A stretch of DNA of 64,000 bases, taken from positions 1 through 64,000 of the forward strand of contig JAIQFY010000023.1 of assembly GCA_020072965.1 (NCBI GenBank). The letters run 5' to 3'. Each line of letters starts with the position of its first letter. The first letter of the stretch is position 1. The DNA comes from Terriglobia bacterium (GTDB lineage: Bacteria > Acidobacteriota > Terriglobia > JAIQFV01). A program made the translations under genes and the position numbers. Of the stretch, positions 16,550 through 28,329 are shown piece by piece. Below the pieces are notes generated by a model, which had not been told where the DNA came from, ran no database searches, and saw only the letters and a program-made list of their open reading frames with translations.

Positions 16550-16996
16550 ATGAGTTGTAAGTTTCGGTTCATCCTCCCCCGTGGAAACTTCCATGAACAC
16601 CCATTTGGTCGGCCAAGGCGAAATGATTTCCGGGCACAATCCAAAGTCAATCTGGCTCCGCAGCTCCTGCGCCTTAGCGGTGAACCCGATGCTCCTGAAA
16701 ATCCTACTTTTGGAAGAGGTTCCAGAAGTGCTCCAATGGGAACGACGGAAGAAAGCTGCTGCATAACAAGTCTGGGTTGGACGAAGCCGGGGGAGAGCAA
16801 CCTTGGAGCATGAATCACGAAGTCGGGAGCGGACTGTCCCGAATTTGTTCGAAGTCCTGCGGACAATCTTTGACGGACATTTTGACCCGCCCCGGATTAG
16901 GCCGCCCTAGGGGCGGGGCTTGTAGAACTTGTTTTGAAGCGGTCGTTGCTGTAAATTGATGAGGTCGAAAGGGTTGTTTGTTTGACGACCCAATCT

Positions 16997-17067
16997 ACCT
17001 AACCGTATGAGGCCGCCGTGGTCGCGGGGTTTGCTTTTGGACCCCCGGAGGCTAATGCGAGTTATCC
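16997..17067 (+). other. Degenerate attC-like site
   Basis: Begins with a good core ACCTAAC and ends with GTTATCC, which deviates from GTTRRRY. GGGGT and ACCCC pair in the middle. It lies directly before the first clear cassette gene. Confidence 0.3.
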
Positions 17068-17103: not shown

Positions 17104-17877
17104 ATGGCAACGTCTAGGAATTCAATTATAGCCCTGGCTGTGACGGTCCTTCTTGCTACGCCGGCGGACGCACAGTCTCAACGTCAACTGCATTTCCTGT
17201 CGAAGCAATGCAACGAAGACGCCATCCATATGCACCTCGAGCCGCGTCCATTTCAAGACTTCGTGGGATCCGAGTTCTCGCTGGTGCTGGAAGAAGGAAA
17301 GGCTCACGTCCTCATCGTAGTTCAGGACTGTTCGCAATACTGGATCGACGGCGCGGACGTCGGACCCGCGCAGGATATTAATGTTTGGGTGTCTATCCGT
17401 GGCTTTGAGGACGTGCGCTCCGTGGTCGGAGCGGAGCAGACACTGCCGACGAGGACGTGGTTCCATCTTTTCGCCGGATCCAGCAATCCGCGCGTCCGCG
17501 AGGCGAAAATGGCCGCAGGAACCGCGCAGGCTCCGATCGCGGGTGTTTTCCTAAACCCGCCAGGACCGCAGCGGACTGGACGCGTTTCCCTAAGTAAGGA
17601 CTTGACCTATTCGTGGGAGGTACCGTCAGCGACGCCGTTGTCCCGTCTGGTGGGCCTGAACCATGACGTCTACACTAGAGATCCCGCCGGGCACGGCGGC
17701 CTCAACCGAATACAGGTACTGATGCACGTTTCCGCGGCCCAATCTACGGGGACCCTGAAAGTCGTGGGCGGGACGGATGGGCTACCATTGATCAGCGCTG
17801 GCACTTACGCGGTTACTGTGTCCACGTTCTTTCCAATGTGGTCTCGAGCGACGCTGGGTCTCGCACGGGCACGTTGA
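17104..17877 (+). CDS. Exported hypothetical protein (cassette gene 1)
   Basis: 257 aa with a clear signal peptide (MATSRNSIIALAVTVLLATPADAQS), so periplasmic or secreted. The mature part contains four cysteines at most and a glycine/proline-rich middle. No known domain was recognised. The ATG has a purine-rich AGAGGA before it. The stop codon is followed within 6 bp by a clear attC site (17883-17967), the standard layout of an integron gene cassette with one gene in the same direction as the attC. Confidence 0.65.
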   Translation: MATSRNSIIALAVTVLLATPADAQSQRQLHFLSKQCNEDAIHMHLEPRPFQDFVGSEFSLVLEEGKAHVLIVVQDCSQYWIDGADVGPAQDINVWVSIRGFEDVRSVVGAEQTLPTRTWFHLFAGSSNPRVREAKMAAGTAQAPIAGVFLNPPGPQRTGRVSLSKDLTYSWEVPSATPLSRLVGLNHDVYTRDPAGHGGLNRIQVLMHVSAAQSTGTLKVVGGTDGLPLISAGTYAVTVSTFFPMWSRATLGLARAR

Positions 17878-17882
17878 CGGCA

Positions 17883-17967
17883 GGCTAACCCGCGCGTGCA
17901 CCCGACCGTCGCAAGAAGCAAGAGCGCGCCGTCGGGTGACGCGCTAGACGTTATCCATTCGTTAGGC
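17883..17967 (+). other. attC recombination site 1
   Basis: Left core GGCTAAC (17883-17889), right core GTTAGGC (17961-17967). The arms GCGCGTGCACCCGAC and GTCGGGTGACGCGC pair fully except for one extra G on the left arm, the extrahelical base that sets strand choice by the integron integrase. This pattern is diagnostic. Confidence 0.88.
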
Positions 17968-17981
17968 TGCAGGCACTACAC

Positions 17982-18641
17982 GTGGGCATTCTCTCCAGGA
18001 TAAGAGCCGCGCTGCATCCCTCGCCTCCAGGCGAGGAGGGATTCACCGCCGTACAGCCCATCCCCGCCGCAGACAATCGGTTCGGGGTGGACATCTGGGA
18101 CTGTCGCGCCTTCACCCACAATATGGTCTCTACAACTGCGAGCCCCGAGATCGCCAGACGTTACGTGGAGCTTCGAAGCTCCCAAGGCAACGAATACCAA
18201 GGCCAGACGCCTACGAACGCACACGTCGTCACGTGTAATCTGACCTACGCATTCTCGCAGCGCCCTTCGGACGGCCCGCTCTTCAAGTCCGAGCAGATGG
18301 AGGACAAGTGGGATATCTACCTCTTCGACGATGAGCTTTACTTCGCACGCAGCTGGACCGGGGAGCTGACATTCAAAGCCCGTGTTCGCTATGAACCCGG
18401 CGCGCTCTACATTACAGCACTAGCAGCGGAGGAAAACCACGATCCAGCCTTCGCCCTGCGCGTCGTAGATTACCTGGTCAAGACCCATGTACTGCGACAC
18501 GAAGCGCCCCATCCCTTACCCTCGACCTTGCCCCCAACCCCGCGGGATGTCGCTGTTTTCTCATTCTCGTTGTTCGGTCGGCGCTGTTCCTTCGGGACGT
18601 ACGCGGACACTATCAGTATGCAATCTTCTGCGTCCCCTTGA
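17982..18641 (+). CDS. Hypothetical protein (cassette gene 2)
   Basis: 219 aa from a GTG 15 bp after the attC core; no strong ribosome-binding site is visible. It looks soluble, with no signal peptide or membrane helix. Features include SEQMEDKWDIYLFDDELYFARS and a beta-rich middle, then a proline-rich stretch (HPLPSTLPPTPRDVAVF). No family recognised. The pattern 'threshold residues then DELYFARSWTG' recalls small cassette-borne proteins of unknown function. It is followed at 20 bp by attC site 2. Confidence 0.6.
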   Translation: MGILSRIRAALHPSPPGEEGFTAVQPIPAADNRFGVDIWDCRAFTHNMVSTTASPEIARRYVELRSSQGNEYQGQTPTNAHVVTCNLTYAFSQRPSDGPLFKSEQMEDKWDIYLFDDELYFARSWTGELTFKARVRYEPGALYITALAAEENHDPAFALRVVDYLVKTHVLRHEAPHPLPSTLPPTPRDVAVFSFSLFGRRCSFGTYADTISMQSSASP

Positions 18642-18660
18642 GCGCTCTAGCGTGCCTGCA

Positions 18661-18768
18661 GCCTAACATGCGCTTGAAGCTGGCGGGCTGGGGCGGCCAC
18701 ATCGGTCGGAGAAGGTCCATCTTGATTGTGGCCGCCCCAGCCCGCAGCTTAAGCGCAACCCGTTAGGC
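18661..18768 (+). other. attC recombination site 2
   Basis: Perfect cores GCCTAAC (18661-18667) and GTTAGGC (18762-18768). A long imperfect palindrome pairs CGCTTGAAGCTGGCGGGCTG with CAGCCCGCAGCTTAAGCG, leaving two unpaired G residues on the left arm. The stem continues through GGGGCGGCCAC / GTGGCCGCCCC. One of the clearest attC sites here. Confidence 0.92.
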
Positions 18769-18793
18769 TTACTGAAATGGAAGGGCCTTAGTC

Positions 18794-19219
18794 ATGAACC
18801 AAGGCGAAGTCGGGTTCGATTATCGACCGCCACTGTTTGGGGTATACCACCCTGTTGTCGCTTATGGCTTCGTTGTCATTTTTTGCCTCAATTTGGTTCT
18901 CTTGTACTTGGCATTCTTCGTGCACTCGAGCGTTCGCCAACGAGCCCGCATCTCAGGGAACCAGAAGGGGCTCGCACGATTTGCGTTTTGCTTCCAAAAG
19001 GGTTCGGCTGTTCTCATTGCTATCCTCGCTCTTGCCGCTGTTATCGCACGGGCCGGACGGGAAGGATTCATCGCGTCAGAATTCGTTATCACGCTCTGTG
19101 TGGATTTGCTCCTTGTGCTTCCATGCCTGATTGGCGCGAGACGGTGGTTCCGTACCCTGAGCATAGCCCGAGCGGAGTCTGACACGATGAGCATCAGCAA
19201 GGCGAAGGGAATTGATTGA
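18794..19219 (+). CDS. Small integral membrane protein (cassette gene 3)
   Basis: 141 aa. Three hydrophobic segments are visible: VVAYGFVVIFCLNLVLLYLA (about 23-42), a second near 70-85 (GSAVLIAILALAAVIA) and a third near 95-113 (ITLCVDLLLVLPCLIG). No domain name can be given. The gene lies between attC site 2 and the intron-split attC site 3, in cassette orientation. Confidence 0.6.
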   Translation: MNQGEVGFDYRPPLFGVYHPVVAYGFVVIFCLNLVLLYLAFFVHSSVRQRARISGNQKGLARFAFCFQKGSAVLIAILALAAVIARAGREGFIASEFVITLCVDLLLVLPCLIGARRWFRTLSIARAESDTMSISKAKGID

Positions 19220-19273
19220 TTGGACAATCGGCTCAATAAGGACTTATCGCACGAAGCCTAACCCGCGCGTGCA

Positions 19274-19762
19274 GTGCGCCGTGAAAAGGCGGCGATCTTC
19301 AGTGGGTGCAAATCCCATCCGGCAACTGTCGCTCCAGCCGGTAGCAACCGGAGCAGCCGTGGAAGCAATGAAACGGCTGAAGCCTCCGGTGGAACGAGGT
19401 CACCTTGGGTGACCCAGCGAGCAGGCAGGCCGTAACGTGAGTAAACGCTGAGCAGGCCTGGAAAAGGGTAATGCAGGAGCCGACCTGGCTGCACCACAGG
19501 GAAGGCCGACGGGGCGGGGGGAAGACGAGCGAAAAGCCCCTCGATCTCCTGCTGGGGTAGTGGCGACGGCATGTGGGCACACGGCATTGCATGCTAAACA
19601 CATGATTCCTTGTCCGAGAGCTGGATGCGGGAAATCCGCCCGTCCAGTTCGATGAGCGGGATGTGGAAACGGAGCATGGCCGAGCTAGTGAGGCACCGGC
19701 CGACGAAAGGGCCGGCCACAGATAGGCTCTGCCTAAACCACCGCGCCACATCTCGACTCTAC
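19274..19762 (+). mobile_element. ORF-less group II intron (probable IIC-attC type) inside an attC site
   Basis: It begins GTGCG, the group II 5' consensus, and ends CTCTAC, a usual 3' end. Domain V is at 19618-19650: GAGCTGGATGCGGG, then a GAAA-type loop region, then CGCCCGTCCAGTTC, with the AGC-type catalytic stretch and two-base bulge position. The 5' part contains CAGTGGGTGCAAATCCCA and CCGGTAGCAACCGG, typical of domain I. No reverse transcriptase/maturase frame exists; domain IV is reduced to a short stretch, so mobility and perhaps splicing need a protein in trans. It has the same orientation as the cassette genes. The family is assigned from the insertion site and domain V, not from an alignment. 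Confidence 0.82.
19618..19650 (+). ncRNA. Group II intron domain V catalytic hairpin
   Basis: 33-nt hairpin whose arms GAGCTGGATGCGG and CCGCCCGTCCAGTTC pair with the conserved asymmetric bulge. This is the most conserved part of group II ribozymes and the best single proof of the intron. Confidence 0.82.
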
Positions 19763-19841
19763 CCCGGTCCGCCAAAAAGCCGGCGGACGAGTGACGCGCT
19801 ATCTCGTTAGGCGCACTACCTTGTAATGACAGGAGCGGGGG

Positions 19842-20303
19842 ATGTCCACAGAGCAGAACAAAGCAATCGTGACCAGGTTTTATGAGGAATTGTGGAATCA
19901 GCGGAACCTCAGCGTCGCCGATGACATTTTCGCTGCCGATTGCCTGACGCACCAACTCCAGTCAGGCACGGCGTCCGTCGGCATGCCGCGCAGCCCTGAA
20001 GCGGTGAAGAAACATGTTGCGGAATGGCTCGCTGGCTTTCCCGATCTGCGTTTCGACATTGAGGAGATGGTTGCCGAAGTGGATCAAGTCGTCAGCCGCA
20101 GCGTCATGCAGGGCATACATATGGGTACATGGCTCGGCCTGGCTCCGACAGGGAAAAAGGTCAGCATCCGGATGTCCGTAACGCATAAGATTAAGGACGG
20201 GAAGATCGTTGAAGATTGGGTGCTGGTAGAAGCGTTAGGATTTTTCCAGCAGCTTGGGCTAGTGCCAGCGACGGAGAAGATTTTGTCGAGGGCAGCGAGG
20301 TGA
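19842..20303 (+). CDS. SnoaL-like / ester cyclase family protein (cassette gene 4)
   Basis: 153 aa. NTF2-like fold of the SnoaL ester-cyclase group: NKAIVTRFYEELWNQRNLSVADDIFAADCLTH at the start (two blocks), then FPDLRFDIEEMVAEVDQVV and IRMSVTHKIKDGKIVEDW. Members are small-molecule cyclases or hydrolases, or have unknown substrates; catalysis cannot be inferred. GGAG precedes the ATG. It sits between the intron-split attC and attC site 4. Confidence 0.85.
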   Translation: MSTEQNKAIVTRFYEELWNQRNLSVADDIFAADCLTHQLQSGTASVGMPRSPEAVKKHVAEWLAGFPDLRFDIEEMVAEVDQVVSRSVMQGIHMGTWLGLAPTGKKVSIRMSVTHKIKDGKIVEDWVLVEALGFFQQLGLVPATEKILSRAAR

Positions 20304-20333
20304 GGTGCAACAAAGATGCAGCCCGGCCCGTGC

Positions 20334-20420
20334 GCCTAACAAGGGGCTGAACCCGACCGCCACTCAGCAGGCTTCCTAAAGATGTGGAATACAGGCGGCG
20401 GGTTAGCCCCGGAGTTAGGC
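20334..20420 (+). other. attC recombination site 4
   Basis: Perfect cores GCCTAAC (20334-20340) and GTTAGGC (20414-20420). GGGGCTGAACCCG on the left pairs with CGGGTTAGCCCC on the right, leaving one extra G. Stem continues CCGCC / GGCGG. Confidence 0.9.
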
Positions 20421-20429
20421 CACTGAGGA

Positions 20430-20993
20430 ATGCCTACAATAAGTCAATCGATGCATACGAAGCTCCTTATTCTCGACCTTGATGAGACGCTGGTTTTTGC
20501 TAGCGAAGAGAAGTTAGCCCGCACTGAGGATTTTCAGGTAGCACCCTATTTCGTGTACAAGCGGCCTGGTGTGGAGAGGTTTATTGAATTCGCTTTCACT
20601 CATTTCGAGGTTGCGGTGTGGACCTCATCCAGCTCCAACTACGCGAAAGAGTTGATAGATCAAATCTTTCAACAGCCGGACCGGCTTCAATTTGTGTGGG
20701 CCCGAGAACGTTGCACTCGGAAATCAGATCCCGAATCAGGGACCAGCTACTGGATCAAAGACCTTAAGAAGGTCAGGCGGCTTGGCCGTTCTCTCGAGGG
20801 CGTCCTAGTCGTCGATGACAGCCCCGGGAAACTTGAGCGAAGTTATGGAAATCACATTCATATTCGTCCCTTCGAAGGAGACCCAAGAGACGACGACCTT
20901 CGAAAGTTACAAGCCTACCTGCTTTGGCTGAAGGATGTACCGAACGTACGCTTGTTGGATAAAAGAGACTGGAGAACAACTCTGGTGGCCTAA
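20430..20993 (+). CDS. NIF/FCP1-type HAD phosphatase (cassette gene 5)
   Basis: 187 aa. LLILDLDETLVFA carries the DxDxT catalytic motif of HAD phosphatases in the form used by FCP1/SCP (NLI-interacting factor-like) phosphatases. FEVAVWTSSSSNYAKELID gives motif II, and VLVVDDSPGKL gives the terminal acidic pair. The fold is best known for dephosphorylating eukaryotic RNA polymerase II tails; bacterial homologues exist but have unclear substrates. Probably cytoplasmic. The TAA stop lies inside the left core of attC site 5, as is common in compact cassettes. Confidence 0.85.
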   Translation: MPTISQSMHTKLLILDLDETLVFASEEKLARTEDFQVAPYFVYKRPGVERFIEFAFTHFEVAVWTSSSSNYAKELIDQIFQQPDRLQFVWARERCTRKSDPESGTSYWIKDLKKVRRLGRSLEGVLVVDDSPGKLERSYGNHIHIRPFEGDPRDDDLRKLQAYLLWLKDVPNVRLLDKRDWRTTLVA

Positions 20994-21061
20994 CCCGCGC
21001 GTGCACCCGACCGGTGCTAAAAGCCAAGGCACGCCGGGTGGGTGAGCCGCAGCCGTTAGGC
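20988..21061 (+). other. attC recombination site 5
   Basis: Perfect cores GCCTAAC (20988-20994, overlapping the stop of the phosphatase gene) and GTTAGGC (21055-21061). Left arm GCGCGTGCACCCGACCGG is nearly identical to site 1 and to the re-joined site 3. Confidence 0.88.
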
Positions 21062-21096
21062 GCTAATTGGAGTCTTATGATCGAGGCAGTGGTCAA

Positions 21097-21639
21097 ATGA
21101 TGATCTATATTGCGTTCTTACGAGGCATCAACGTCGGCGGGAAGAATCCTCTACCGATGAAAGAACTGGTCGCGATCCTTGAAGACCTCGGGTCCCAAAA
21201 CGTCAAGACCTACATCCAAAGCGGCAATGCGGTGTTCGAGAGCAGAGACAAAGACGCTTCGCGGCTTTCAAAGATAATAAGTGCTGAAATCAAGAAGCGC
21301 CGTGGATTCGAGCCCCATGTCCTATTGTTGAAGCTCAAAGACCTCGAACGGGCAATCGCAAAGAATCCATTCCCCGAAGCGGAGACCGATCCCCAAGCTT
21401 TACATGTGGGCTTTCTCGCCTCCTCACCCGGGAATCCCAGTCTGAAAATACTCGACAGCATCAAGAGCGAGAGCGAACGGTTTCATCTGATCGACAACGT
21501 GTTTTATCTGCATGCACCCGAGGGAGTGGGCCGATCCAAGCTCGCTACAAATGCCGAGAAATGGCTCGGCGTCCCCATGACGGATCGTAATTGGAGAACT
21601 GTGCGCACAGTCTGGGAAATGGCGAAAGGGTTAACTTGA
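21097..21639 (+). CDS. DUF1697 family protein (cassette gene 6)
   Basis: About 180 aa. The opening YIAFLRGINVGGKNPLPMKEL and KTYIQSGNAVFES are the hallmark of DUF1697, a widespread cytoplasmic family of unknown function often seen in gene cassettes. An ATG at 21097 was chosen because the family starts right at this motif; a TTG at 21067 would add ten residues overlapping the attC edge. The C-terminal ATNAEKWLGVPMTDRNWRTV is also typical. Confidence 0.88.
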   Translation: MMIYIAFLRGINVGGKNPLPMKELVAILEDLGSQNVKTYIQSGNAVFESRDKDASRLSKIISAEIKKRRGFEPHVLLLKLKDLERAIAKNPFPEAETDPQALHVGFLASSPGNPSLKILDSIKSESERFHLIDNVFYLHAPEGVGRSKLATNAEKWLGVPMTDRNWRTVRTVWEMAKGLT

Positions 21640-21646
21640 TGACGCC

Positions 21647-21713
21647 CAATAACGGGGCCCAGGCGACATGGCTCCGCCGCGCTCCGCAACGCCCCTGAAC
21701 CCAACCGTTAGGC
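21647..21713 (+). other. attC recombination site 6
   Basis: Right core GTTAGGC (21707-21713) is perfect; left core is degenerate (CAATAAC). TAACGG on the left and CCGTTA on the right pair, and a weaker stem with CAGG / CCTG follows. Confidence 0.6.
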
Positions 21714-21760
21714 GGCCTTGCCAGAGCGTTAGAAAGCCGCAGCCAGGAGGAGAAAATCTG

Positions 21761-22714
21761 ATGAGGCGTCTACTGACACTATTGGGCCTAGTCAGTTACG
21801 TGTTCGTCGTGAACGCAGCAGAGGTCGTCCAGGTCCGGCCGTGGGAGCTGCACAGTAGCTTTTGGATGAGTCTTCATCAGACTCTGATCGCGGACGCGAT
21901 GCGCTCCACGCCGCGCGCGCTACCCGATTTGTCCCCAGAAGAGCAGGCAACGTGGAACGAGGCCGTTAAGGCATACTGCACCGCCGGCGGCGGGCACAGC
22001 GACATGACCTTCGCGAATCCGATGCTCATCACCACCGATGCCCTCACCCAGGTCGCGGATGATGCGGCCGAGCCGCTAATCAACGCCCCTCTTAAGGATG
22101 CGCTGATCCTTGCCGCTCCCGTCTATCGCCGGCACTGGTGGACGGTCGACGACCAGGCGAATCGATTTTTCATCGGTTATGCGGCCGCCATGCTGCGTGA
22201 AGCGGGAGAGGGCCTCGTTCGGGCACATGAATCGGTGTATCGTACGGCGTGGCCGGAACGCATTCGCGCCTACATCACGCCCTTTGCCGGCCCTTACGGC
22301 GCCTACACGATCACCGGGCGGTCGGGCGGCGTGATTACCACGATGTCCTGCCGCGACCCCGGCTACCAGGGCCTACGGGCGCTCGAAATGCTTTTGCACG
22401 AGAGTTCACACGCCGTGGTCAATCCTAACAGGGGAACGGTCGCCGCGGCGATCACGACGGCTGTGAAGGCGCGCGGCTTGGATGCGCCGCACGAGCTATG
22501 GCACGCGATCCTCTTCGCCACGTCGAGTGAGCTCACGCGCCGGGTCCTTGCCGAGCGGGGCGTCGCGGGTTACGTGCCCACTTCGGAAGACCTCTTCACG
22601 AGGGCGTGGCCGAAGTATCGTGAGCCCATAGAAAAGTACTGGATCCCCTATCTCAATGGGCAGGGCACGCTGGAGGAAGCCATCGACAAAGTTGTCGCCT
22701 CGATCCCACGATGA
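21761..22714 (+). CDS. Exported putative zinc metallopeptidase (cassette gene 7)
   Basis: 317 aa. The ATG follows an excellent AGGAGG ribosome-binding site and opens a signal peptide (MRRLLTLLGLVSYVFVVNAAE). Near residue 215 the sequence LEMLLHESSHAVV contains HExxH, the zinc site of many metallopeptidases, in a hydrophobic helix context. The third ligand is not certain; a Glu further on (HELWHAILFATSSELTRR) could serve. No named family was recognised. No attC is clear directly after it; only a weak inverted repeat around 22914-22984. Confidence 0.6.
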   Translation: MRRLLTLLGLVSYVFVVNAAEVVQVRPWELHSSFWMSLHQTLIADAMRSTPRALPDLSPEEQATWNEAVKAYCTAGGGHSDMTFANPMLITTDALTQVADDAAEPLINAPLKDALILAAPVYRRHWWTVDDQANRFFIGYAAAMLREAGEGLVRAHESVYRTAWPERIRAYITPFAGPYGAYTITGRSGGVITTMSCRDPGYQGLRALEMLLHESSHAVVNPNRGTVAAAITTAVKARGLDAPHELWHAILFATSSELTRRVLAERGVAGYVPTSEDLFTRAWPKYREPIEKYWIPYLNGQGTLEEAIDKVVASIPR

Positions 22715-23009
22715 GGTCTCGACCGTTATCCCAGGCTGTGGCGTCCGATCGGACCGTCGGGGATTTGGCGCCCGAATCCTGGTGCTTCGTGAGGTAAGGG
22801 AGGGACTTGTACCGGCTCGCCCTCCAGCGAGGCGCTGCACCGAAGTTCAATGACGGTTCGCCAGTTGTGGGCGAAGAGTTTCCAAGCGAGCGACGTCAGC
22901 CTTTCAAGTGTTGGCAGCCGACGGCGCGCGTGGAATCCACTGAGAGCTCCAAGCAACAAGCGCGCCGCCGCTGAATCGTGACGTTCGACCATGTGAAAGG
23001 ATTACTACC
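22715..23009 (+). other. Spacer after the metallopeptidase gene; no clear attC
   Basis: 295 bp. GGCGCGCG and CGCGCGCC-like arms around 22924 and 22967 could be the relic of an attC, but both cores are unrecognisable. No gene seen. Confidence 0.35.
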
Positions 23010-23435
23010 ATGGCAGAAAACAAAACCAAACCGACAAGAGGCAGTGTGACTGCTTTCTTGAACAAAATCAAAGACCAGCAATTGCGAGACGATTGCTTTG
23101 CAATTCTCGAAATGATGCGGAAGGTCTCGAATTGTGAACCCATCATGTGGGGGAGCGCAATCATCGGTTTTGGGACATTTCATTATGCCTATGAGAGCGG
23201 ACGAGAAGGAGATACAGTAGTTATCGGCTTCTCGCCGAGAAAACAGAACATCAGCATCTATTTAATGGGTGGACTGAATAAAGTTGAAGATGAACTTTCC
23301 AAGCTGGGGAAGTACAAGAGCGGCAAAGGATGCCTGTATATTAAATCGCTTCGCGATGTGAATGCAGAGGTTCTCAAGAAAATCTTTGCCAAAGCTTTTA
23401 AGGAAGCACAACGAAAAAACGCACACCCGGGCTAA
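23010..23435 (+). CDS. DUF1801 family protein (cassette gene 8)
   Basis: 141 aa. AFLNKIKDQQLRDDCFAIL, the ELMRKVS/EPIMWGSAIIGFGTFHY block and FSPRKQNISIYLM match the DUF1801 (YdhG-like) family: small soluble proteins of unknown function with a putative ligand pocket. The TAA stop lies within the left core of attC site 7. Base use is more AT-rich than in the flanking cassettes, as expected for genes of separate origin. Confidence 0.87.
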   Translation: MAENKTKPTRGSVTAFLNKIKDQQLRDDCFAILEMMRKVSNCEPIMWGSAIIGFGTFHYAYESGREGDTVVIGFSPRKQNISIYLMGGLNKVEDELSKLGKYKSGKGCLYIKSLRDVNAEVLKKIFAKAFKEAQRKNAHPG

Positions 23436-23592
23436 CCAGTCGCTCAAGCTGCCGTGGCGACCGCGGCCGCAATGCGGTCATCGCGTGTCCAGCTTTCTAA
23501 ATACGATTTATGTCAGCGGCAGTTATCCCTAATTTAAGAACCTTGCGTCCGCGAACAAGGTCGCCACGCAGCTGAGCTCCAGTCGGTTAGGC
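23430..23592 (+). other. attC recombination site 7 (long form)
   Basis: Left core GGCTAAC (23430-23436), right core GTTAGGC (23586-23592). AGCTGCCGTGGCGACC pairs with GGTCGCCACGCAGCT with one extra base. The centre is a long loop, making this 163-bp site longer than its neighbours. Confidence 0.78.
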
Positions 23593-23660
23593 CGACGGAT
23601 CGCAGAGCTGAAGGCCTGGGGGTCAAATGGTCCGCAACGCGAATTTGGAATAGGAGATAC

Positions 23661-23939
23661 ATGCGCGAGCGAAAAACAAGGACCGAGGAGTTCCATCTGG
23701 ATGGGGAACACCTAGTGGCGAAGATAAAGGAATTGATTCGAGACGGAGACATCATTCGAATCACCCTCAAGGACAAGGAAGGGACGACCTTGATTGAGGT
23801 GCCACTAAGCCTTGGTATCGCAGGGGCCGTTATGTCGCCTGTCTGGGCGGCCATCGCAGCGACTTCTGTACTTTCTGGTGAACTGACAATGGTTGTTGAA
23901 AAGATAGAGGACGAAGGCCATTTGCTGAAATTTGTTTGA
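23661..23939 (+). CDS. DUF4342 family protein (cassette gene 9)
   Basis: 92 aa. The sequence EEFHLDGEHLVAKIKELI, then IIRITLKDKEGTTLIEVPL, a glycine-rich hydrophobic helix (GIAGAVMSPVWAAIAA) and a final charged strand match DUF4342. Homologues are small and possibly membrane-associated; function unknown. The GTTAAGC core of the next attC-like site follows within 90 bp. Confidence 0.78.
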   Translation: MRERKTRTEEFHLDGEHLVAKIKELIRDGDIIRITLKDKEGTTLIEVPLSLGIAGAVMSPVWAAIAATSVLSGELTMVVEKIEDEGHLLKFV

Positions 23940-23940
23940 A

Positions 23941-24026
23941 TCAGATGTGTGCCGGCGGCATCTGACCAGCGCGTGCATTTGGCCCTCCAGAAGACCATCG
24001 GACGGGCGACGAACCAGATGTTAAGC
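23941..24026 (+). other. attC-like site 8
   Basis: Right core GTTAAGC (24020-24026) fits GTTRRRY. The left core is degenerate (around CTGACC at 23962). CATCTG and CAGATG pair, and the AGCGCGTGCA arm resembles other sites of this array. Confidence 0.5.
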
Positions 24027-24042
24027 ATGATTGGGGGGCTTT

Positions 24043-24402
24043 GTGAAATGGGATAAATCCAGACCTTGGTTTCTTGCACTCGGATTGGCATTGTGCATCG
24101 CACTTCTCCCCCTTGCAATATTTCCAAGCCGCTTTGCTGTTTCATATTTGGGCCAGGTGGCATTTTATCTGGTCACTCCTGCATTTTTCCTATGGTCTCA
24201 ACTACTCATCCTGGGTCGACTGCGTGGGGGAAGCGGAATATATGGTTATGCTGTAAATCTTAGCGTGAGTTCCCGGCAAATGTATGTCTTCGTCTTGCTC
24301 AACTGGCTAATCTACTCGGTGGCAATATTCATTGTGATTCAGGGAATCCGAAAGCTGAGTGGATTCAGCAAGCCGAAGCTGACCTTGAGTAAGGATGCCT
24401 GA
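24043..24402 (+). CDS. Small membrane protein (cassette gene 10)
   Basis: 119 aa from a GTG with GGGGGG before it; a TTG at 24031 would give 123 aa. Hydrophobic segments near residues 10-28 (WFLALGLALCIALLPLAIF), 35-58 (YLGQVAFYLVTPAFFLWSQ) and 82-104 (MYVFVLLNWLIYSVAIFIVI) suggest three membrane helices. No family recognised. The stop overlaps the left core of attC site 9. Confidence 0.6.
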   Translation: MKWDKSRPWFLALGLALCIALLPLAIFPSRFAVSYLGQVAFYLVTPAFFLWSQLLILGRLRGGSGIYGYAVNLSVSSRQMYVFVLLNWLIYSVAIFIVIQGIRKLSGFSKPKLTLSKDA

Positions 24403-24461
24403 CCCGCGCGTGCACCTGGCGGGCGCAAAGAGCGGGCTGCCGGGTGACATGCCAGTTATTA
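24397..24461 (+). other. attC-like site 9
   Basis: Left core GCCTGAC (24397-24403), right core degraded to GTTATTA (24455-24461). GCGCGTGCACCTGG pairs with the CCGGGTGACATGC arm with the same extra G seen in sites 1, 3 and 5. Confidence 0.6.
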
Positions 24462-24482
24462 TGTGGCTCGCCGAAGAAAGAT

Positions 24483-25412
24483 ATGAACCATCAACGGACG
24501 TCTTCGCTTAGTGGCAGGCCACTGCTCGAGGCCATAGCCTCCGACTTGGATTTGTCGACACTGCAGCAAGCTAATCTGGATCGCTGCGGCTTGACCACGT
24601 TTCCACTCGAAATCCTTAAGCTATCGGGCCTTTCAGTCCTCAGCCTGTTCGACAACCAGCTGACTGACGTCCCGGGCGACATATCCCAGCTACGTCTCCT
24701 GCAGACCCTGAACCTCTCTCAGAATCAGCTTTCGACGGTCCCCGAAAGCATCGGCTCTCTTGAACATCTCGAAATGCTCGACCTCGGGCACAATCGCCTG
24801 TCCGCGTTGCCGGCCTCCCTGGGAGCGCTCAGAAATTTGGCCTTCTTGTATGTGAGCGAAAACCATTTGAGTAGCCTGCCCGGTTCCCTCGCTGCACTCT
24901 CCAAGCTCCAATATCTCAATATCACAGACAACCAATTTCAGGAACTACCCAGCTGGATTGGCGGGCTCAGCAGCCTCCTTGAGCTTCGGGTCTACAACAA
25001 TTCGCTCACGACGCTTCCCTCAGAGATTGGCGCCATATCAAATCTTGTTGAGTTGCATGCGAATAAGAATCAGATCGCCACGTTGCCCACCTCAATCGGG
25101 CAACTGTCTTCACTCGCCAAACTAAATCTCCAGTCAAACCATCTATCCGAGCTTCCGGAATCCATCGGAAATCTGACTAAACTGACAGAATTGGACTTAC
25201 GGTTCAACGACATTTCCACACTTCCATCTCGCATGAGCCATCTGCGATCTCTTGAGTACTTGGATCTGCGGGCGAATGCACTGACGGCGTTACCTGAGGA
25301 CTTGCATCAATTGCCAAATCTTCGTAAAGTCGATCTGCGCTGGAATCAAATCGCTGCCTATCCGCGTTGCTTTACGGTGTTAGTTGATCGAGGATGTATC
25401 GTTTATATGTAA
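24483..25412 (+). CDS. Leucine-rich-repeat protein (last gene of the array)
   Basis: About 309 aa. From residue about 30 onward it is built of roughly eleven 23-residue leucine-rich repeats of the form LxxLPxxIGxLxxLxxLxLxxNxL (for example LNLSQNQLSTVPESIGSL, LNLQSNHLSELPESIGNL). No signal peptide, kinase, ROC or E3 domain is visible, so it is probably a cytoplasmic binding protein. The ATG at 24483 is preferred: an earlier in-frame ATG at 24444 lies inside attC-like site 9. No attC follows, so the cassette's own site is lost or the gene arrived by another route. Confidence 0.85.
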   Translation: MNHQRTSSLSGRPLLEAIASDLDLSTLQQANLDRCGLTTFPLEILKLSGLSVLSLFDNQLTDVPGDISQLRLLQTLNLSQNQLSTVPESIGSLEHLEMLDLGHNRLSALPASLGALRNLAFLYVSENHLSSLPGSLAALSKLQYLNITDNQFQELPSWIGGLSSLLELRVYNNSLTTLPSEIGAISNLVELHANKNQIATLPTSIGQLSSLAKLNLQSNHLSELPESIGNLTKLTELDLRFNDISTLPSRMSHLRSLEYLDLRANALTALPEDLHQLPNLRKVDLRWNQIAAYPRCFTVLVDRGCIVYM

Positions 25413-26140: not shown

Positions 26141-26464
26141 GTACACAATGCTGCGGTTCTTTGGGGCATTAATCTGTTGATCGCCTTGGGATTTGGTGCA
26201 ACCCATCTCGGTCAGGCACGGGCGTTGCACGGATTGACCGCTAGCTATGTTGGCTTCATTCTTCTTTTTAACGGCGTGGCGAGTCTTGTATTCGGGTGGA
26301 TTTACTGGCGGAAGGACTCTTTGCAGCTGTCGTTGCTCATTGCTGCACAGATCTAATACTTCAGGGTGTTCTTGTTCCGATTGAAACCCGCATTGGGCGG
26401 CATGGTTGAGCCAGGATACGGATCCGAGAGCGTGGTAAGCGCGTTACTCAAGGCGAACGTCTAA
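26141..26464 (+). pseudogene. Broken small membrane protein gene
   Basis: The frame reads INLLIALGFGATHLGQARAL, GLTASYVGFILLFNGVASLVF and GWIYWRKDSLQLSLLIAAQI, then a TAA at 26354-26356. It continues in the same frame for 35 sense codons (YFRVFLFRLKPALGGMVEPG...) to a second TAA at 26462-26464. No good start codon precedes the hydrophobic part. This suggests a decayed two- or three-helix membrane protein interrupted by a nonsense change. Confidence 0.4.
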
Positions 26465-26568
26465 GACGGGGATGAACCTGGGCGCTGCCGAAGCGGGCGG
26501 AGCAGTCGCGGGTCATTCCCCAGCGTTGGGTTGCCCTCTGGACGCGTCGATGCGGGAGGAGGTGTTGA

Positions 26569-27156: not shown

Positions 27157-27415
27157 TGCTCGTCGCAAAGCCACACCGAGGAAGAAAGTTCCAGCCTGAT
27201 ATGGGCAGGCACCCGACAAACGGATCGGCATGAGTTTCTTTACATGAGAACCGTCCTCGGCCCGTTCGATAGTAATGCGAGGCCGTTAGCCGAAGTGAGA
27301 CAGTCGATGGCTACGAATGGCGAAACTTCGGATCAATGCAGCGGTTGCGGCCTGACCATGGCAGGTGGAACGTCCGGCTGAAACGCTATCATGAGCCGGA
27401 AAATGTAAGTCACAT

Positions 27416-28231
27416 ATGAGAAATGACATCCAACCAAGTGACCCGGCGAAAAAAAGAGTGCTTTACCAGATACCCGGCATGGATACCGTCCCCATTCGAC
27501 GGGATGTGGAATATCGAGCCACCGAAGCGGGCGTTCTCACGATGGATATCTACTATCCAACGGAAGCGACTAGTGGATTGCGGACACCAGCCGTCGTCTT
27601 TGTGTCCGGATTTTCTGATCTGGGATTTCAGAAGATGCTCGGTTGCAAGCTCAAAGAGATGGGATCCTACATCTCCTGGGCACAACTGGCCGCTGCATCG
27701 GGGTTGGTGGCCATCACCTATACGAATAGAGAACCCATAGCAGATGCCCATTTATTGCTTCAATATGTTCGGCAGAATGCCGCATTGCTAGGAATCGACG
27801 AAACCAGGATCGGCCTGTGGGCATGCTCAGGCAATGTTCCGATGGCGCTATCGCTTCTCATGCAGAGCGCCGGTAATGCACTGAAATGCGCTGTTCTATG
27901 CTATGGGTACTTGCTCGACCTCGAAGGGTTTGCCGGGGTAGCAGAGGCGGCCAAGGCATTTGGGTTTGTCAACCCGTGTGCGGGAAAATTAGTCGATGAT
28001 CTTCCGCAGGATATTTCTCTGTTCATGGTGAGAGCAGGTCACGATGAATCTCCTCACCTGAACGAGGCGATGGACCGCTTTTTGGTTAAGGCGTTGGCTC
28101 GCAATCTGCCCATTACCGTCGTGAATCACTCCACGGCTCCGCATGCGTTTGACCTGATGCATGATAGCGACACAACACGCGAGATCATCATACAGATACT
28201 GGCGTTTATGCGGTTGCATCTCCTGACATAG
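27416..28231 (+). CDS. Alpha/beta hydrolase, dienelactone-hydrolase-like
   Basis: 271 aa. The fold is visible in VLTMDIYYPTEATSG, TPAVVFVSGF, the IDETRIGLWACSGNVPMAL elbow and the ending VNHSTAPHAFDLMHD with its final histidine. The nucleophile elbow departs from GxSxG (ACSGN), so the catalytic residue could be Ser or Cys, or activity could be altered. No signal peptide. It is followed at 25 bp by an isolated attC-like site. Confidence 0.75.
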   Translation: MRNDIQPSDPAKKRVLYQIPGMDTVPIRRDVEYRATEAGVLTMDIYYPTEATSGLRTPAVVFVSGFSDLGFQKMLGCKLKEMGSYISWAQLAAASGLVAITYTNREPIADAHLLLQYVRQNAALLGIDETRIGLWACSGNVPMALSLLMQSAGNALKCAVLCYGYLLDLEGFAGVAEAAKAFGFVNPCAGKLVDDLPQDISLFMVRAGHDESPHLNEAMDRFLVKALARNLPITVVNHSTAPHAFDLMHDSDTTREIIIQILAFMRLHLLT

Positions 28232-28255: not shown

Positions 28256-28329
28256 GTGCTCAACGCGAGGTTGCAACCGGCTCGCATCCCCCTTTGTTCC
28301 ACACGAGCGGCTGAACACGGCCGTTAGGT
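28256..28329 (+). other. Isolated attC-like site downstream of the hydrolase gene
   Basis: Right core GTTAGGT (28323-28329) fits GTTRRRY; left core GCTCAAC is one change from consensus. GTTGCAACCGGCTCG on the left aligns with the complement of CGAGCGGCTGAACAC on the right with an extra base. It suggests the cassette array once reached this far. Confidence 0.5.

Follow-up and report, generated by a model that had tools for sequence, protein, structure and literature searches.

The window, which is the whole 64-kb stretch of DNA analysed here, carries an integron cassette array: several attC sites with R''/R' cores, L boxes and hairpins lie on one strand and alternate with genes. All genes of the array are read from the plus strand. 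No family was found for the first cassette gene (17104-17877; 257 aa) or the second (17982-18641; 219 aa), and the third (18794-19219; 141 aa) codes for a probable membrane protein. They are followed by genes for a SnoaL-like protein (19842-20303; PF07366, 1.6e-34), a NIF/dullard-like (FCP1-related) HAD phosphatase (20430-20993; PF03031, 1.2e-36; TIGR02251, 8.7e-28, below the cut-off), a DUF1697 protein (21067-21639; PF08002, 2.9e-42), a probably secreted protein with a HESSH motif (21761-22714), a DUF1801 protein (23010-23435; PF08818, 2.7e-12), a DUF4342 protein (23661-23939; PF14242, 2.6e-18) and a probable membrane protein of 123 aa (24031-24402). The last clear cassette contains the gene of a leucine-rich-repeat (LRR) protein (24444-25412; PF13855, 4e-37), whose reading frame overlaps the attC site at 24397-24464 and whose start codon is uncertain. 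The FCP1-like phosphatase, LRR and DUF1697/1801/4342 cassettes of the original prediction have family matches; of its putative metallopeptidase, the HESSH motif stands, but no family match accompanies it.

Eight plus-strand attC sites were scored within 17883-24464 using a two-arm model whose training set comprised 24 attC sites, all outside the window array. This model was used in place of a covariance model because MAFFT misplaced the right arms when full attC sites were aligned. The scores range from 30.5 to 73.9; shuffling the whole window 12 times gave at most 31.2 on one strand. These scores are separate from the covariance thresholds of IntegronFinder. R''/R' cores and long stems are present in the sites at 17883-17967 (score 73.9; R' placed by the model at 17956), 18661-18768 (108 bp; 60.4; fold z -10.7), 20334-20420 (54.5; fold z -5.6), 20988-21061 (66.0) and 23430-23592 (163 bp; 30.5, at the margin of what shuffling gives and also backed by the 163-bp stem and matching cores). 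Together with the third site of the array, which had been described as split, these are the six sites predicted as clear, all found at the positions given. The split is real: R'' and L'' up to GCGTGCA occupy 19256-19273, L' and R' occupy 19763-19812, and a group II intron lies between them. Since the model pairs the left half with intron sequence, the score of this site reflects mainly its left arm. The predicted common arm of sites 1, 3 and 5, GCGCGTGCACCCG, is exact in sites 1 and 5, but in site 3 it is broken by the intron after GCGCGTGCA.

Of three sites predicted as weaker, two are recognized by the arm model, though not by folding energy, which is no better than in shuffles: a weak site at 23960-24026 (33.1; originally placed from 23941) and one at 24397-24464 (48.2), whose left arm is intact and whose R' has decayed. 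The third, at 21647-21713, has no arm-model match and does not fold better than shuffles; position and an intact GTTAGGC (R') are all that is left of this possible degenerate attC, its R'' not being recognizable. Further possible degenerate sites, with scores of 20-27 near chance level, are located at 28258-28329 (23.3; after the gene at 27416-28231) and perhaps at 22899-22989 and 26459-26531. Among further plus-strand genes, three weak plus-strand attC-like sites are found at 26459-26531, 27194-27274 and 28258-28329, and an earlier form of the array may have extended to 28.3 kb. Rfam matches to mir-636 and MIR5534 at 18667-18758 were rejected as chance products of the long attC hairpin, and a match to c-di-GMP-II-GAG at 23416-23497 is under the gathering score.

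Directly before the first cassette lies a relic of an integrase gene, consisting of the last eight codons and the stop (VRSPADNL*; 16847-16873, plus strand; aligned with the 3' end of intI on contig C34), and behind it an attI-side leader (16874-17065, plus strand; 88% identical to the C34 integron). Over its 219 bp, the whole segment (16847-17065) shares 88% identity with the corresponding intI/attI end on C34, another contig of the same genome (draft assembly, 108 contigs), which carries an intact integron; the crossover GTTRRRY of the leader is not clear in this alignment. C34 codes for a full IntI (TIGR02249, 459 bits). Its best match of solved structure is the integron integrase 2a3v (8.1e-87), with which the R, H-x-x-R, H and Y residues and the IntI-specific insert are aligned. 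At least eight attC sites follow, and their arms match window sites 1, 3 and 5. The C34 locus is syntenic with that of the congener G001, and the two IntI proteins share 91% identity. Judged by synteny with G001, C34 and the contig of the window (C30) would be about 75 kb from each other and inverted in order. Cassettes of the C34 integron (L009, 7415-7673 and 14093-14439) recur in the G001 integron at 95-96% identity in other positions, a sign of recent shuffling. Partial intI copies accompany the arrays on C70, C89 and C15 of the window genome, and C4 carries a further leader-like match (72%). The copy at C70:46485-47065 lacks about 100 middle residues and stands ahead of a further array in which an attC is likewise split by an intron.

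No intact integrase gene was found within the 64-kb window. The array is a cluster of attC sites without neighbouring intact intI, with the relic present, and would probably be called a CALIN by IntegronFinder. The original prediction, which had proposed a CALIN with neither integrase nor attI, holds in that no intact integrase stands alongside, but it missed the intI 3' end and the attI-side leader; extended to the whole genome, absence of an integrase is contradicted by the full IntI on C34. Because relic and leader precede the first cassette, the locus is to be read as a decayed platform and not as an orphan array. As judged from sequence comparison, the array derives from a second copy of the host integron that has since decayed, and the genome holds several such decayed platforms.

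In G001, the flanks of the array are syntenic at 188-197 kb of contig C8, where the array is absent and about 9.9 kb is replaced by about 2.1 kb, most of it unrelated. Four cassette genes are found elsewhere in G001 at 78-92% DNA identity: the DUF1697 gene (87%, on C26), the genes of the HESSH protein (92%) and the DUF1801 protein (83%), both on C2, and the LRR gene (78%, on C4). Cassette positions thus vary between relatives, and the vertically conserved gene order named beforehand as an argument against a cassette array was not seen. The array may have been gained in the window genome or lost in G001, as two genomes fit both. The segment 12345-14455 of the window, with a TetR-type gene, has its G001 counterpart on C52, although the sequences to its left and right are syntenic with C8; by this sequence comparison it is a second variable spot beside the array.

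The intron in the third attC site is 489 bp long (19274-19762, plus strand), lacks an open reading frame, starts with GTGCG and ends with AC; its ends were set by comparison of copies. It matches RF02003 (109.7 bits at 19300-19440) and RF00029 (41.8 bits at 19616-19689), and has the conserved D1-D4 core, domains V and VI and the ends GUGYG...AY of group II introns. Its domain V, at about 19616-19650, contains an AGC triad of IIB type. As no ORF is present, the assignment to a class relies on Rfam and domain V, which suggest a IIB-like intron. Besides the window copy (contig C30), the genome contains full copies of about 721 bp on C37 and C70, and 3' fragments on C43, where the contig begins inside the copy, and C38. 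Copies are 92-95% alike; the one on C30 is without about 230 bp of domain IV. The AGC triad is present in the C30, C37 and C43 copies and is ACC in C70; in the domain V bulge of C30, CC replaces AC; bulge and triad are both unaltered in C37 and in the C43 fragment. Catalytic activity seems lost in the C30 and C70 copies, and the window intron is probably no longer active. In C37 and C70, a reverse transcriptase (RT) reading frame starts and ends after codons for (T)P[E/D]TVQKLQTAWHA; in C37, the ORF is deleted after codons for PETVQKLQTAWHA. The same break point is found in L041-L043, three introns of 73-77% identity that come from another family of the class, so the ORF-less form is probably old.

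All three 5' exons of the C30, C37 and C70 copies end with CTAACCCGYGCGTGCA, the insertion being after the same attC base and in cassette orientation, and upstream of the attC arm their 5' flanks are unrelated. On the 3' side, the C30, C37, C43 and C38 copies are followed by right halves of attC sites, of which some have decayed; C70 has lost this half and has a dehydrogenase-like gene as its 3' neighbour. The EBS1 loop of the intron (CUGCAC; CTGCAC in DNA) pairs with the L'' box of attC (GUGCA). Among 13 non-redundant introns, cognate EBS1/IBS1 pairing averages 5.15 of 6 positions versus 3.66 +/- 0.24 after permutation, with none of 5000 permutations as good, a figure that is not a strict probability because the introns are mutually related. 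The attC-type loop forms five of six pairs with the attC box and at most four with other targets.

A different target is seen in the congener. Four 5' ends of the same intron family, 93-94% identical over 120-134 bp, are found in G001, all after TARCCCGGATWATTCA. In each case (L124, L125, L126 and L132) the contig ends inside the intron; these contig ends after TARCCCGGATWATTCA are probably ends of a repeated element. The attC arm and the TARCCCGGATWATTCA target have TARCCCG in common, with spacing off by one base. When contigs of 84,980 species were scanned for CTAAC, 5-14 bases and the intron start, 21 stretches were obtained, whose 5' exons mostly have CTAACCCRCATT-type ends and not the attC arm; since the pattern demands exact bases, other attC-borne copies were possibly missed. 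In 399 genomes of the class, TAAC...TGCA junctions occur three times in the window genome and once in G298, where the downstream sequence is not intron.

No RT of the family of the window intron was found in the host genome. The sole group II RT found there is on C107, in an intron behind a terminator-like hairpin, and has no DNA similarity to the window intron; neither have the RTs of G001. The C107 intron (L039, 1-1900, minus strand) contains a full RT and follows a strong hairpin directly, like group IIC introns. As the genome contains no helper RT of the same family, mobility of the window intron would either be past or depend on an unseen helper; lesions in domain V together with the lack of a matching RT make its present mobility doubtful.

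We propose that the locus is a decayed integron whose attC site was hit by an ORF-less, attC-pairing group II intron, a reading to which we assign a probability of about 0.78. The chromosomal integron of the host, most likely an acidobacterium, would have lost intI save its last codons, and kept the attI-side leader and about ten cassettes. Because EBS1 pairs with the L'' box, the intron most likely entered by reverse splicing into the top strand of attC just after GCGTGCA, presumably aided by an RT encoded elsewhere. Its insertion splits attC and would probably lock the cassette. The intact integrase of C34, associated with the same attC type, could still act in trans on the window sites. A change of EBS1, combined with the TARCCCG motif shared with the R'' core of attC, would explain the switch from the TARCCCGGATWATTCA target. 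We also favour, with less assurance, the view that the intron represents a second, independent attC-homing lineage, IIB-like, ORF-less and helper-dependent, whose EBS1 reads the top-strand L'' and which was retargeted from the TARCCCGGATWATTCA used in the sister species.

The strongest competing explanation of the intron copies is that a single insertion into attC was later copied by homologous or integrase-mediated recombination, without retrohoming. The 92-95% likeness of the copies also allows spread via attC-attC recombination, an IntI is present in the genome, which lacks an IIB-type RT, and the copies are confined to attC sites. We nevertheless regard it as unlikely: the flanks above the attC arm are unrelated in C30, C37 and C70, and EBS1 fits the attC box as well as the EBS1 loops of relatives fit their own targets, which is unexpected from recombination alone. 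Less probable still is a true orphan CALIN, built by the C34 integrase through serial insertion of cassettes at a secondary chromosomal site with no earlier platform. A window without intact integrase and the missing array at the syntenic place in G001 would agree with such an origin, which is largely refuted by the intI codons, stop and leader standing directly before the first cassette and resembling the intact integron. That the window intron is a known group IIC-attC intron, as its place in an attC inside a cassette array might suggest, can practically be dismissed in view of its AGC triad, which is not of IIC type, its plus-strand cassette orientation, its insertion after GCGTGCA in L'' and not within TTGT/T at R'', and an EBS1 pairing of 5-6 bp.

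With its attC array, mostly one gene per cassette on the same strand, taxon-specific attC sites and an intact integrase elsewhere in the genome, the decayed integron resembles known chromosomal integrons and CALINs. It differs in keeping the intI/attI-side relic that shows the origin of an integrase-less array, and in that its genome carries several decayed platforms. Group IIC-attC introns are likewise placed in attC sites of cassette arrays, but they are RT-encoding IIC introns that insert into the bottom-strand TTGT/T when it is folded, in orientation opposite to cassettes (PMC7923331); the window intron is IIB-like and ORF-less, has cassette orientation on the plus strand and lies in the L'' arm. 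The IIB introns UHB.I2, H.ha.F1 and H.ha.F2 lie in or behind cassette arrays of halophiles (PMC7923331). UHB.I2, behind an attC, has cassette orientation, as the window intron does, and poorly conserved exons, the H. halochloris pair is 5'-truncated, and no recurrent insertion at one attC base has been reported for them (PMC7923331). Group II introns with ltrA from proteobacteria and acidobacteria (L044-L056), including plasmids of Paraburkholderia and Microvirga, have an approximately 70-77% identical ribozyme, the same 5' end GTGCGCC, the same 3' end AC and, upstream of many targets, a TARCC-like motif. In contrast to the window intron, an RT is present in most of them, and an attC-type EBS1 in none of those examined.

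The array by itself is ordinary; what appears to be new is the recurrent, apparently base-pairing-directed insertion into attC by a non-IIC intron. As far as found in the literature surveyed, which does not establish priority, the only introns known to seek attC are IIC-attC introns, readers of the folded bottom strand. With its relic still present, the array is evidence that decay of an additional integron platform is one way in which arrays without integrase can come about. The change of one loop appears to have given a base-pairing intron attC as its new target, and because the presumed old and new targets are visible in two species of one genus, natural retargeting of an intron becomes testable.
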